Part shown: positions 10,690 to 64,000 of the stretch, piece after piece
Position numbering within the stretch: position 1 is the first letter of the stretch
How the letters are laid out: each line of letters starts with the position of its first letter
Assembly (NCBI GenBank): GCA_029964075.1
Contig: CM057142.1
Coordinates: 1,069,770-1,133,769 of the forward strand
Source: Patiria pectinifera
Taxonomy: Eukaryota; Echinodermata; Asteroidea; Valvatida; Asterinidae
Length of the DNA stretch: 64,000 bases
Reading direction: 5' to 3'
The notes under the pieces: model-generated
Told to the model about the DNA's origin: nothing
Seen by the model: only the letters and a program-made list of their open reading frames with translations
The model's database searches: none
Program-made: the position numbers and the translations under genes

Positions 10690-32446
<21,757 letters not shown>

Positions 32447-57814: not shown

Positions 57815-58560
57815 CGCCTTTGACGTCATAATACGGTGTATCGAATTCCTTTCATTTCAACTATTTTTTAGCATCAGAAGATAAATTTGGTGGTAGAATC
57901 ATTTCGCATTCTCAATAACTGACAAACTTCTAGATCCTGGACTGAATAAGGAAGGAGTTTTGGATTTCTTTTAAAATTTTGATTATCATGCACATATTGC
58001 GGCAGTGGCAAATTCAAAAAGCAAGGGGTGTCCTATTTCATTGCAGCAGCTATTTAAAAGTAGAATTCCACAGTATTCTGGTTCTTTATTGTTCAGCCGG
58101 GGGAAAATGGCATCTTTTGGCGCCGGGATTTTTGAAAGGTGACATTCCGGCCCAAAAAGCCGGAATAGGCCTAGTTGTTTTATTATGAGTCCAATAGCCT
58201 AAAATTGCGACCGAGAAATGTAAACAGCGCCCTCAAAATTGCGTCCTAAATTGCGACCGAGAAATGTAAACAGCGCCCTCAAAATTGTGTCAGGAAAGCG
58301 GAGGAACCAAAGTCGGATCCCAAGACGTCGCCAGGTAAAGTTGAAATTTGAAGGACCATAGGTGCCCGACTGCATTATTTATCCATGTATTTCGACATAA
58401 GCAACCAAATCTGGCTAAGTTTTCACAATCTCTAATAAAGCTCTAGTCGTGTTCGGGATAGAAAATGGAATACAGTAATAAGCTTTGAGAGAGATGCTGC
58501 TGTAAAACTGTCTGTGAAAGAATTAGTTGTCGCACTTCGTATATGATTTCGTAAGTAAAG
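57815..58560. other. Upstream of the WD40 gene, no gene seen
   Basis: Contains a 45-bp tandem duplication near 58205-58285 (AATTGCGACCGAGAAATG and AACAGCGCCCTCAAAATTG twice). Otherwise nothing is recognised. Confidence 0.5.
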
Positions 58561-58614
58561 TTCTACGGTAAGGCTAGCCCCACTAGTGTGGCCGTCGGTA
58601 TGCTGCGCTGAACC

Positions 58615-59481
58615 TAGCTCTACTGAGTGGAGCGTTGAATTACGGGTACCCCTCCATACAAACGCTCCACCGATTTGCCATACTTTGGTAGCACTTACAC
58701 GGTCGTCATGACGGTATGCATTTTGTGCATGCCCTCGCGAGGACAAGGCCCAAAAAAACTGATAAAGAAAATACAAATGAGGAAGACAGTAACCCTGGAT
58801 AGATCCACACATTCATGACATTCCATAAGACCCCTCAAATTGTTTCAAACAACCGGTAATTTTGAAAAAAGAACAAAATAGTCTGAACTTACCGCTCACA
58901 ATTAAATGTGTCTGCCGAGTTGCACAGTCTATTTCACTGACATGACTGATGCATAATTCATCGCGCGCGTGTGACGTCACTATTGAAGAAAAACAAGTCG
59001 CGCTTAATCAACGACTGTTTCATGTACTGATATGTGCCCCGCACCAAAAACCCACAGTCAGACGGCGCGGGGCACATATGACTACATGAAACAGCTATTG
59101 AGTAAGCGCAACTTGTTTTTCTTCAATAGTGACGTCACACACGCGCAATGAATTATGCATCAGTCATGTCAGTGAAATAGACTGTGCAACTCGGCAGACA
59201 CATTTAATTGTGAGCGGTAAGTTCAGACTATTTTGTTCTTTTTTCAAAATTACCGGTTGTTTGAAACAATTTGAGGGGTCTTATGGAATGTCATGAATGT
59301 GTGGATCTATCCAGGGTTACTGTCTTCCTCATTTGTATTTTCTTAATCAGTTTTTTTGGGCCTTGTCCTCGCGAGGGCATGCACAAAATGCAAACCGTCA
59401 TGACGACCGTGTAAGTGCTACCAAAGTATGGCAAATCGGTGGAGCGTTTGTATGGAGGGGTACCCGTAATTCAACGCTCGA
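58615..59481. mobile_element. Foldback element, family B (B3)
   Basis: Left end TAGCTCTACTGAGTGGAGCG. The arms mirror across a centre near 59055 with inverted GACTGTTTCATG (59013) and CATGAAACAGCT (59085). The right end stops at TTCAACGCTC, about 13 bases short, where it joins C2. It shares outer arms with B1. Confidence 0.9.
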
Positions 59482-59485
59482 GACC

Positions 59486-60465
59486 TAGTCCGAGTAACTT
59501 GGACCCAACTTATCGCCTTTTTTAACATTTGGACATGGTCTGGCGATAGTAAGGTCCAAGCTAATACCGAGACCTAGACAACACAGTCCCCAAAACGATC
59601 AAAAACCAACATTTTCCAACAAAAAACATCAGATTTCACCTTCAAAACGGCCTCCAAATTACTAGATATGTCACCTGAGGTACAAGTAGACATAGATGAT
59701 TAAGATGGTTGTACTTAAGTTTACTTACAATCCGAAAAAAAAGTGAAATTTTCCGTTCAATTCCGTTCAATTCTGAAGACCCCCTCTGCCTAGGTTGTCG
59801 TTGTTGCTCACGTTCAAAACTGCATGATAATGGCGTCTGACCTCGACCTCATGCAAATGTCGTGACGGCGCGCTTGCGCATAATGCACTGCATGCGCGGC
59901 AGATCAGATTCCCCTGCGCCGCGCCGACGACTGTTTCCTGATGTAGAGTGCTGTGTAAGTTCGCGGTACGCCTAGGAGTCGCGCTGGCTAGCCAGGCGCA
60001 TGGCTGGCGCTCTACATCAGGAAACAGTCGTCGGCGCGGCGCAGGGGAATCTGATCTGCCGCGCATGCAGTGCATTATGCGCAAGCGCGCCGTCACGACA
60101 TTTGCATGAGGTCGAGGTCAGACGCCATTATCATGCAGTTTTGAACGTGAGCACAACAATGACAACCTAGGCAGAGGGGGTCTTCAGAATTGAACGGAAA
60201 ATTTCACTTTTTTTTTCGGATCGTAAGTAAACTTAAGTACAACCATCTTAATCATCTATGTCTACTTGTACCTCAGGTGACATATCTAGTAATTTGGAGG
60301 CCGTTTTGAAGGTGAAATCTGATGTTTTTTGTTGGAAAATGTTGGTTTTTGATCGTTTTGGGGACTGTGTTGTCTAGGTCTCGGTATTAGCTTGGACCTT
60401 ACTATCGCCAGACCATGTCCAAATGTTAAAAAAGGCGATAAGTTGGGTCCAAGTTACTCGGACTA
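59486..60465. mobile_element. Foldback element, family C (C2)
   Basis: Ends TAGTCCGAGTAACTTGGACC and GGTCCAAGTTACTCGGACTA. The centre lies near 59979 with inverted GACTGTTTCCTG (59929) and CAGGAAACAGTC (60018). The outer arms match C1; the inner arms differ completely. No duplication at its borders. Confidence 0.92.
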
Positions 60466-62287
60466 GGAGTTACCCAGCCCTGAGTTTTATCATTGGGTTG
60501 TCATCTAGGGCTGGAGCTCATTTTTCTCGAAAACGATAGTATAGGCAAAACAAATTTGGAAAATGTTTAATTTTGTCCCCGTTAAACACTAATTGCAACT
60601 GCAACTCACCCCAAACTTGCCTGGAATAACCATTACACAGGTCCTTGAAGTAAAAAACGATCCACGATGAAGATTCAGCCTACAATTGCAGTGAAAACAG
60701 GAGGAATAACCGCTAACCTGACAACCTTGCGAGCATGGCCAGGATCGCCAATGGTTTGTGCACAAAAAAAAATTGTGTACGATTGAATGGCGGTCGGTTA
60801 CCGGTGTCACGCCCCAACTATCGCATCGGTCCCAACTATAGTTGGGACTGTCCCAACTATAGTGCGGCAGTTGGGTCGGCCCAACTATAGTTAGGACTGG
60901 AGTTGCGCCGGATGCTTCATGCTTGATAGATCTTGTTGGATTAAATGTTCCGTGGCGCTGGCACCGTGTATTCGTCGTGCATGCATGCCGCAAGGCTGGC
61001 CGGTCACGTGGTACTGCCTAGTTGGATGAGTTGTCCAGCTGCTGGTTTTTTTTATCCAGCAACATTTTGCAAAATTCAAAGATTGCCATGGCCGGCCAAC
61101 TATAGATGGGCCCCACTCATAGCTAATGTCAAAGGTCCCAAGTCGGACATGTAAGCAGAGCTGTAGGGAATGTTTTATAGTCGTACATCAATGTAAACTA
61201 TAGTTAAGACTGCCAAATAAAAATATTGTGGTGGCCCAACTACAGATGGTCCCCACCCATAGATCATTTCATTGGTCCCCAGTAAAGTCAGATGTGTATT
61301 ACTAGAGTTGTAGGGAATGTTTTATAATCGTACAACAATGTACACTATAGTTGGGACCGCAAAATAAAAAGATTGGGGTGGCCCAACTATAGATTCGCCC
61401 CATCAATAGCTAATTTCAGTGGTCCCCAATAAAGTCAGACGTGTATCAGAGCTGTAGGGAACGGTTTATGGTTATACATCAATGTAAACTACAGTTGGGA
61501 CACCGCAAAATAAAAAGATGGGAGTGGCCCAACTATAGATGGGCCGGCCCAACAATGGAAGTAACAGGTGGGACCGTCCCAACTATAGTTGGGACAGGCC
61601 CAAGTATAGTTGGGCCAGCCCAACTGTGGAACTACAGTTGGGACAGGCCCAACTATAGTTGGGACCGATGCGATAGTTGGGGCGTGACACCGGTACCAGG
61701 CTGTCAACTAGTCGTTTTTGCCGGCTGGCGATTGGCTGTTGGCGCATGACGTCGCGCGGAAGCGTAACACCCGATGACTGTTTCATGCACTATCGGTTGC
61801 GGTTTCAGTACCGCAGCTGTGATGCGAGTGGTAAACTTAATATGAGTGCATGAAACAGTCATCGGGTGTTACGCTTCCGCGCGACGTCATGCGCCAACAG
61901 CCAATCGCCAGCCGGCAAAAACGACTAGTTGACAGCCTGGTACCGGTAACCGACCGCCATTCAATCGTACACAATTTTTTTGTGTGCACAAACCATTGGC
62001 GATCCTGGCCATACTCGCAAGGGTGTCAGGTTAGCGGTTATTCCTCCTGTTTTCACTGCAATTGTAGGCTGAATCTTCATCGTGGATCGTTTTTTTACTT
62101 CAAGGACCTGTGTAATGGTTATTCCAGGCAAGTTTGGGGTGAGTTGCAGTTGCAATTAGTGTGTAACGGGGACAAAATTAAACATTTTCCAAATTTGTTT
62201 TGCCTATACTATCGTTTTCGAGAAAAATGAGCTCCAGCCCTAGATGACAACCCAATGATAAAACTCAGGGCTGGGTAACTCCAGCTA
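60466..62287. mobile_element. Foldback element, family D (D1), containing insert F
   Basis: Left GGAGTTACCCAGCCCTGAG, right CTCAGGGCTGGGTAACTCC then AGCTA. The centre lies near 61818 with inverted GACTGTTTCATG (61776) and CATGAAACAGTC (61849). The left arm is interrupted by F (60806-61688). Without F the element is about 0.93 kb, similar to B3, C2 and A2. Confidence 0.9.
60806..61688. mobile_element. Insert F: CCCAACTATAGTTGGGA element inside D1
   Basis: Ends GTCACGCCCCAACTATCGCA and TGCGATAGTTGGGGCGTGAC; ACCGGT on both sides (60800-60805 and 61689-61694), or CCGG if one more base belongs to each end. Inside, GTCCCAACTATAGTTGGGAC and GGCCCAACTATAG recur, and a block with GAGCTGTAGGGAA and CAATGTAAACTA repeats about three times. 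Confidence 0.85.
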
Positions 62288-62491
62288 CGCTGAACCTAGG
62301 TTCAGCGTAGCATACCGACGGCCACACTAGTGGGGCTACGGTAAGGCCTACTTCCAGACCAGGGGTCCTAGACCTAGTAACATCACTAATGCACCTGTCA
62401 ATTGTAAGACGCACCCTCGGACCCTGGGGGCATGTGCGTCAATGTCCACAGGACAGTCAAACTTTGGGGTCCAATGACGCACCCTTGCGTC

Positions 62492-63310
62492 TAGCCCCAC
62501 TAGTGTGGCCGTCGGTATGCTGCGCTGAACCAAAGGCCACACACCGTGGTACCGCGTGCTACTGAGGACGAAGTTTCCTAAAATCTGCGGTCCGTTTCTT
62601 ACATTCTCGGTTTCTTACTTTCTTATGATTGTATTCTATGATGTCTCACCTATCACTTCTGGGATGCTTCGGTCGAATGATGTTCCATTTTCCGAGATAT
62701 TCTTCAATCTTTCTGGAGCCCATATCAATATGCACTCGTGAAACGTCTGGCGGTGATGGCAGCCATTTTGAATGTGACAAGAGATGACCTCAAGCTGTGA
62801 CGTCGCGTTTATGCAAATTGCTTGTCGAGCGCGCGGCGCGAGGGCGCGAGTTGCAAATGCGACGGCTGTTTCCTGTGCCGTAGATCCTGAATAGAGATCA
62901 GTGCACGTGGCCCCCTGACGATAAATGCATGGTACAGGAAACAGCCGTCGCATTTGCAACTCGCGCCGCGCGCTCGACAAGCAATTTGCATAAACGCGAC
63001 GTCACAGCTTGAGGTCATCTCTTGTCACATTCAAAATGGCTGCCATCACCACCAGACGTTTCACGAGTGCATATTGATATGGGCTCCAGAAAGATTGAAG
63101 AATATCTCGGAAAATGGAACATCATTAGACCTAAGCATCCCAGAAGTGATAGGTGAGACATCATAGAATACAACCATAAGAAAGTAAGAAACCGAGAATG
63201 TAAGAAACAGACCGCAGATTTTAGGAAACTTCGTCCTCAGTAGCACGCGGTACCACGGTGTGTGGCCTTTGGTTCAGCGCAGCATACCGACGGCCACACT
63301 AGTGGGGCTA
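62492..63310. mobile_element. Foldback element, family A (A2)
   Basis: Ends TAGCCCCACTAGTGTGGCC and GGCCACACTAGTGGGGCTA; perfect 9-bp duplication CCTTGCGTC at 62483-62491 and 63311-63319. It is an 819-bp palindrome with its centre near 62905 and inverted GGCTGTTTCCTG (62864) and CAGGAAACAGCC (62935). Open frames inside are mirror images of each other and not genes. Confidence 0.94.
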
Positions 63311-63319
63311 CCTTGCGTC

Positions 63320-64000
63320 TTGTTCATGACGAACCATTCACGCATTTTGACGCTATTTATAACGAATTTTTGACGCACCATTTCTGGATATCAACTCACC
63401 AATGACGCACGTATGACGGACATAATAATCGACGAATGAATCTCGATAGCACGGCATGGAACACGCACACTTTGTGTAATAACGATGTTTAATTTCCGAA
63501 TGCACCTCCAGCTGAGTTGAGAAGAGGAAACCAGCGAATCAATCGTGGCGATGGCTACATGTGTACCGCAAGCGCTGCCATGCCAGGCAGGGCGAAATTG
63601 CGAATTGTGTTGCGATGCTGAAACTTGATGATCGTTGGAAGCTAAACAAATATTTTGTTTGCAATATTTTGTACACCGAAAAAATGGGATGTTAGCCGGG
63701 CCTTTATGATCATGGTCTATGGGTTGGCCATAGGGTTAGGAACGTACATAACGTAGGCCCACGAAAATGTTCGCTTTGGGGAAAAACAATGTTATTTAGC
63801 TTGTGACTTTTCGGGACAAAGTTTAGAATATTGTTTAATTTTGAAAACTTATTTAATTGGAACTTATTTAATTGGCAACAATTAAAATAGAAAATGTTAA
63901 TATTTTTTGCTCACACTAATGAAATGAATAAATAAATGGAGATAGACGATCGGCCTTGGCAAGTCGGCTAGGATTCCAGGAGGGTTGTGACGATTGGGAG
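63320..64000. other. Right flank, nothing recognised
   Basis: No gene, splice-flanked exon or clear repeat is seen. Confidence 0.5.

Follow-up and report, generated by a model that had tools for sequence, protein, structure and literature searches.

A short inverted core at the centres of unrelated palindromic transposons in Patiria pectinifera, with a possible promoter-proximal role

Excerpts of earlier papers describe the transposons that come closest to the elements studied here. In maize MuDR, two convergent genes are transcribed inward from promoters inside both repeats, and plant Mutator-like elements (MULEs) with multiple long inverted repeats carry more than one repeat per end and are mobilised as units (PMC3310237). 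Tm1, a Mutator/Foldback family of root-knot nematodes, makes mostly 9-bp duplications and has many non-autonomous members (PMC3169594), while Galileo has long, changing inverted repeats with conserved ends and has recruited internal sequence into its repeats (PMC4168063). Here we analysed a 64,000-nucleotide stretch of the sea star Patiria pectinifera (assembly GCA_029964075.1, contig CM057142.1, positions 1,069,770 to 1,133,769, forward strand), hereafter the window, in which five palindromic elements carry the 12-bp motif GRCTGTTTCNTG, the core, as an inverted pair at their centres.

The palindromes resemble MuDR/Mutator in their long inverted repeats and MULE-class target duplications, and by analogy may also have had inward promoters; unlike in MuDR, no genes are left between the repeats, and the arms meet almost head to head. 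With Tm1 they share a foldback shape, mostly 9-bp duplications, non-autonomous members and a short inner motif. Unlike Tm1, whose repeats consist of 13-15 bp tandem units and enclose a histone hairpin, they have arms that are not tandem (no direct repeats inside A-E arms of the window at E <=1e-4), and their motif is a different one that lies in the arms. Galileo, of the P superfamily, likewise has long, changing inverted repeats with conserved ends and internal sequence recruited into them, but its duplications are 7-8 bp and those here mostly 9 bp. As in plant multi-repeat MULEs, more than one repeat can stand at an end and move as a unit; the internal repeats of the plant elements lack duplications of their own, whereas the nested elements here mostly have them.

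The core in the window and across the genome

The core occurred in ten copies, which form five inverted pairs at five palindrome centres, and it was exact in nine of them; the lone inexact copy, on the minus strand at 59085-59096, is AGCTGTTTCATG and has one mismatch. The first-pass annotation had placed these pairs in B1, B3, C2, D1 and A2, and all ten positions and the span of 83-102 bp proved right. From outer edge to outer edge the pairs measured 102 bp in B1, 84 bp in B3, 101 bp in C2, 85 bp in D1 and 83 bp in A2, with 59-78 bp between the paired cores. The core is the innermost stretch of both arms, although arm pairing often runs a few bases further inward. The window held 11 matches at one mismatch or fewer, compared with 2.46 on average and at most 8 in 100 dinucleotide shuffles; at two mismatches or fewer there was no excess (38 matches versus a mean of 32.75). 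The core-bearing elements are listed below; a strand is given where the feature has one, and core positions are motif matches.

62492..63310: element A2, an 819-bp palindrome with terminal inverted repeat TAGCCCCACTAGTGTGG, flanked at 62483-62491 and 63311-63319 by the 9-bp duplication CCTTGCGTC
62864..62875, plus strand: A2 core, left arm
62935..62946, minus strand: A2 core, right arm
62798..62805: CRE-like (cAMP response element-like) site TGACGTCG of A2, 66 bp outside the core
62811-62818: octamer ATGCAAAT of A2
58615..59479: element B3, a palindrome with the B-type left end TAGCTCTACTGAGTGGAGC and a truncated right end
59013..59024, plus strand: B3 core, left arm
59085..59096, minus strand: B3 core, right arm, one mismatch
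58972..58979: CRE TGACGTCA of B3, 41 bp outside the core
59486..60465: element C2, a palindrome with terminal inverted repeat TAGTCCGAGTAACTTGG; the two flanking 9-mers differ
59929..59940, plus strand: C2 core, left arm
60018..60029, minus strand: C2 core, right arm
60466..62287: element D1, a palindrome whose right end (..CTCCAGCTA) is intact
61776..61787, plus strand: D1 core, left arm
61849..61860, minus strand: D1 core, right arm
61747..61754: CRE-like site TGACGTCG of D1, 29 bp outside the core
61790..61799, plus strand: CTATCGGTTG in D1, a second short block, found at the centres of D, I, J and G
28926..30541: element B1, a palindrome broken by E1, with a full B left end and a degenerate right end
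30055..30066, plus strand: B1 core, left arm
30145..30156, minus strand: B1 core, right arm
30003-30010: CRE TGACGTCA of B1

Outside the core, the palindromes had been described as belonging to unrelated families. This holds for A, B, C and D; B1 and B3, however, are one family, the left arms of representatives from loci L036 and L006 being 73.6% identical, and the window therefore shows four unrelated core-bearing families, not five. The core was present in five of the seven TA-ended palindromes longer than 500 bp, whereas C1 and E1 had none even at two mismatches. The coreless elements of the window are as follows.

31246..32252: element C1, a palindrome with duplication GCTTGAAGC, no core
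29107..29838: element E1, a palindrome inside B1 with duplication GGATTGACC, no core
30993..31088: mini-B, 96 bp, B ends back to back with duplication CATCATGAC, no core

A further element, F, of about 747 bp, is not palindromic and has one core. Since C1 and E1 are palindromes without a core and F has a core without a palindrome, a palindrome neither requires the core nor follows from its presence. C1 and C2 are alike only in the outer ~280 bp of their arms and differ in the inner arms, and the core-carrying inner arms would therefore be exchangeable parts.

Comparison of unrelated contexts extended the core outward to ACGRCTGTTTCNTG in A, B, C2, F, G and a group of arrestin genes; D has ATG where the extended core has ACG. 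We searched the 613.5-Mb source assembly, in which genome-wide counts of repeats are lower bounds. The 12-mer had at least 3,520 matches, compared with 503 for the reversed control. Inverted 12-mer pairs numbered at least 450 at a gap of 55-85 bp and at least 10 at a gap of 86-116 bp, with none in the control at either gap; by eye, the loops of the wider pairs were of A, D or B type, and several contained repeated segments. The extended motif ACGRCTGTTTCNTG had at least 1,465 matches, versus 31 for the reversed, 39 for the scrambled and 43 for the scrambled-then-reversed control. The first-pass annotation had suggested a functional site that is not a transposase-binding end, and both halves of that suggestion found support: the core is met again in contexts unrelated to one another, well in excess of the controls, and the ends lie elsewhere, at TAG/TAC termini with mostly 9-bp duplications.

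Contig C1 (29.8 Mb) has 65 extended sites, and we sorted every one of them by context. Palindromic families accounted for 33 sites (A 21, B 11, C2 1), and the 32 outside them comprised F (13), an F relative (1), G (4, two of which form one short inverted pair), arrestin genes (4) and other contexts (10). The first-pass annotation had named an equal frequency away from palindrome centres as evidence against its reading, and these 32 sites supply part of it. 'Other' here means that a site matched none of the families in hand and may belong to a further repeat; ten such sites stand against the 1.5 that the reversed control predicts, and two of the ten are copies of one repeat. Three of the ten looked promoter-like by eye, namely L054, with a CRE at +97, L066, with a Rel-like GGGGAAATCCCC, and L067, with a YY1-like AAAATGGCGG.

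The four arrestin-cluster cores lie on contig C1 at 3,572,842, 3,578,770, 3,928,087 and 3,934,019. Each faces an ATG 91-100 bp downstream that opens a likely first coding exon, beginning MGKLK.. in L012, and each has the CRE-like TGACGTCT at -39 from the core. An Arrestin_N exon follows 2.0-2.6 kb further on, on the same strand. The 46-residue first exon had no Pfam, PDB or plasmid match, and its arrestin identity is presumed from the downstream Arrestin_N exons.

A, B, D and the arrestin genes each had, 29-66 bp outward of the core, a CRE match of at least seven successive bases. Among the contexts A, B, C2, D, F, G, H and K, four of eight were CRE-positive (p about 2e-6, a value that assumes equal base frequencies and concerns a site chosen after looking). 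Once the spellings of A, B, C2, D and G were excluded, the pattern TGACGT N18-48 CGGCTGTTTCATG had six genome matches and none in the control. Four of the six are the arrestin genes, and the other two, C6:10393054 and C499:49394, have a perfect TGACGTCA; on the assumption of 200-400 such cores, the expectation is about 0.1-0.2 such places. Octamers were also present in A and C2; C2 further had an NRF1-like site, and D had CCAAT boxes.

Element class and the search for an autonomous member

Families A, B, C, D and E begin TAG or TAC, close with the complement and are flanked mostly by 9-bp duplications, a few of which read best as 10 bp. Such TA-type ends are carried by six families. In the collected DNA, 36 pairs of ends shared a 9-mer at one mismatch or fewer, 33 of them within a family and three mixed; the ends were matched at three mismatches or fewer and without a shuffled control, and a few of the 36 may be chance. 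Arm length is about 350-500 bp in A-E, above the 100 bp that MULE repeats usually exceed, and about 60 bp in F, and intact copies of A-E are palindromic over 716-1007 bp, so that the inverted repeats make up nearly the whole element. The 22-base A end had at least 402 exact genome copies, and the 18-base F end at least 927 copies. A2 had no match in the phage collection.

MULEs make target duplications of 8-11 bp and have long inverted repeats, as an excerpt of PMC6446971 states, and because duplications of this class occur here together with long repeats, the palindromes are most likely non-autonomous cut-and-paste elements of the Mutator (MULE) superfamily with a foldback structure. The P superfamily was rejected, as 7-8 bp would be expected and the duplications found were mostly 9 and sometimes 10 bp. 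Transposons of the hAT superfamily make 8-bp target duplications, which the mostly 9-bp duplications do not fit either.

The MULE transposase domain PF10551 had 30 matches in the genome. L072, the one of these loci that was read, has a gene for a MULE protein, other ends and no core; the protein also matches a PHD finger, below the cut-off. Genome-wide listing of end pairs was confined to A and F among the families A to F, and one long pair of each was considered and rejected as an autonomous element. The 7.7-kb A-end pair, L073, consists of two separate A copies. The 6.5-kb F-end pair, L088 (G000:C1:1734275-1740741, 6.47 kb), has F ends and a clean duplication, GGTAACGGT; in the eight scanned of its nine open reading frames of at least 90 aa there was no Pfam domain, the sole match, PcF (E 0.091), lying below the cut-off. 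L088 has only a one-mismatch core-like site and an interior unlike other F copies, and it possibly carries captured DNA.

Readings of the core

We tentatively prefer to see in the core a promoter-proximal element of host type, which points inward from the inner end of each long repeat, much as the repeat promoters of MuDR do. This reading brings together the observed positions and enrichment of the core, the element ends and target duplications, the placement in a host-gene group and the co-occurrence with CRE-like sites. Each palindrome arm would be one long terminal inverted repeat, whose outer TAG.. or TAC.. end would be used for transposition. The inner end would be a promoter-like block in which a CRE, an octamer or other factor-like sites are followed inward by the 14-bp ACGRCTGTTTCNTG, the core being its innermost fixed part. 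If everything between two such inward-facing promoters were lost except 59-78 bp, a palindrome with a central core pair would result, and the core would mark palindrome centres because of its place in the repeat, not by making palindromes. Judging from sequence features, we infer that the arms may drive transcription and that the core may bind a host factor; the ancestor would have had genes between the cores, and the mobilising enzyme would have been a MULE transposase. More doubtful is a stronger form, in which ACGRCTGTTTCATG is a so far unnamed, factor-bound host promoter-proximal element and at least four unrelated transposon families took up or kept it as a captured, inward-facing host switch, with no sequence ancestor shared.

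The arms of family B bear on this as well. B1-type and B3-type arms are 73.6% identical overall, 96-100% in the outermost 39 columns and 92% in the last 25 columns at the core, with 36-88% in the 25-column windows between.

Several results weigh against a promoter-proximal core. The four arrestin copies are related and amount to one independent case, and the extended motif was drawn from part of the same genome that was later used for counting. No CRE was found within 120 bp of the core at one mismatch in C2, F, G and K, and at this looser level (28 contexts examined) two of ten contexts with nothing but a bare 12-mer did have one within that distance. Four of the nine factor patterns tried (GABPA, SP1, E2F and TATA) were absent from 12 sequences; C1, E and G had none of the nine, and the absence from G counts here. 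The CRE-like and CCAAT-like sites of F are placed inward of the core, not outside it. Four mid-arm windows of B also reach 84%, which leaves a modest conservation peak at the core, and seven of the ten other sites on contig C1 had no promoter-like feature by eye. No autonomous core-bearing element was found among one of 30 MULE loci, one A-end pair and one F-end pair. To our knowledge, the core fits no core-promoter element.

Known signals were considered as well. An excerpt of PMC8026812 reports the enhancer stretches GGCTGTTTCCTG and GCAGGAAACAGCC as ETS probes, and the A/C2 spelling of the core, CAGGAAACAG, contains GGAA. In B, D, F, G and the arrestin genes the core is spelled with ATG or GTG and contains no GGAA, and an ETS site therefore cannot account for the shared core. 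A translation start was also rejected: many cores end in ATG, yet A and C2 have CCTG, and the frames after single-copy cores are short and mutually unlike. A string search with six core spellings found no paper on such a transposon motif in the literature text it reached, which leaves absence unproven.

The strongest rival, a serious one although we hold it less likely than not, is shared ancestry without shared function, in which the core-bounded centre would come from one ancestral element and recombination of the outer arms would have produced a mosaic. Short blocks are common to some centres, CTATCGGTTG to D, I, J and G and CAGTATGGGC to B and J, and for this reason partial common ancestry of the centres is likely. 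Each of the 11 copies of CTATCGGTTG in the 308 kb of collected DNA has a core no more than 69 bp away, where 0.59 would be expected, although this DNA was mostly fetched through the core and the count is no genome-wide test. The arms of D, J and G differ although their centres share CTATCGGTTG; J is a relative of A by its arms, yet has CAGTATGGGC in common with B; and the restricted likeness of C1 and C2 suggests swapped inner arms. That the centres are probably in part mosaic relatives also weakens independent uptake. Recent conversion of one longer central segment, which the first-pass annotation had named as a possible refutation, was not seen, since the loops of A, B, C2 and D differ. C2 has no loop block in common with other centres at p <0.05, and shared ancestry leaves unexplained both the arrestin genes and the excess of other sites on contig C1, though the latter may be further repeats. 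We favour the promoter-proximal reading over mosaic ancestry.

The remaining explanations give the core a role in the element itself. It could be a site for an element-encoded protein, either a second transposase site or one for an accessory factor, serving transposition or hairpin upkeep. The concentration of inverted pairs at the narrower gap and the conservation of the core in B, which the outer ends share, would agree with this; C1, E1 and mini-B, however, have clean 9-bp duplications and no core, host genes have one, and the fixed spacing may mainly reflect a few loop types (A, D) that dominate the pairs listed, which makes such a site rather improbable. We give very little credence to the idea that the core gives rise to the palindrome, as a site of breakage, recombination or fold-back priming. 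The core does stand at the inner arm end in A, B, C2 and D, and ten of 15 fetched paired sites (L037-L051) lay inside palindromes of at least 700 bp. The other five had no long palindrome. Three of them (L042, L043 and L045) are copies of A whose arms are shortened, one (L039) matches D on one side only, and L048 is a 195-bp palindrome. With C1 and E1 palindromic without a core, and F and host genes carrying a core without a palindrome, the recombination or replication signal that the first-pass annotation had proposed as the maker of these palindromes is not supported. Equally slight is the chance that a hairpin of RNA or DNA, with the core at its top, is recognised as a stem-loop. Two core copies can pair beneath a loop of 59-78 nt, and an excerpt of PMC3169594 describes a histone-hairpin motif between the ends of Tm1 foldback elements, but the cores in F, host genes and the ten other sites are single and unpaired. 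Four Rfam matches (E <=1 in 58000-64000) included none at the gathering score, and the best, MIR2646 at window positions 58902-59207, reached 121.9 bits against a gathering score of 245 and reflects a long hairpin shape. It serves as a warning that long palindromes can mimic microRNA precursors.

Nested insertions, and what the core would mean

B3, C2 and D1 form a block within a composite, and D1 is itself interrupted.

58575..62338: composite, a small A-ended element (duplication CGGTAAGGC) around the B3-C2-D1 block
about 60806-61689: repeat inserted in the left arm of D1

The block opens with a B left end (58615) and closes with a D right end (62287), each flanked by the 9-bp duplication CGCTGAACC; either it made a single move with unlike ends, or the left end of D was replaced by B3. 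The repeat inserted in D1 is rich in CCCAACTATAG, begins near GTGTCACGCCCCAAC and matches L073 twice (685-1586 and 1732-2413), beside or inside an A copy. At 28926-30928, a B left end with ATAAAGGCC and an E right end with CAAAAGGCC are flanked by a duplication that is off by two mismatches, and this is possibly a unit with unlike ends. Elsewhere in the genome, pairs of A and F ends 47-148 bp apart appear, by position only, to be further ends-only mini-elements. A tandem repeat with units of roughly 104-110 bp was seen at 14501-15162.

Nesting was also observed outside the window. L034 689-4136 (G000:C1:6885188-6888635) lines up an F end, F, B and a further F that holds a nested C; every F and B junction in this array shows the same 9-bp GGCCTAGGC, and it looks as if insertion was repeated at the very same duplication. 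In L050 637-1955, A stands beside E, inserted one base off the target duplication of the older element, and in L053 437-897 an insertion overlaps the end of an older element. L050 and L053 suggest that existing ends are preferred targets. L031 and L032 are inverted-arm elements of about 7 kb whose arms contain tandem repeats; their ends are GGTCCGTG, a 6-bp duplication is apparent by eye, and neither matched the window families at E 1e-6. Each arm holds one core-like 12-mer, which lacks the ACG extension, lies mid-arm and was treated as chance.

If the core is indeed a host-type promoter-proximal element, there would be a simple reason why the motif marks palindrome centres without making palindromes. 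Short palindromic transposons would then be more than dead remnants, as each would spread two host-type promoter blocks and could be a source of new promoters, and the 14-bp core would offer a handle on the factor that drives animal MULE transposons.

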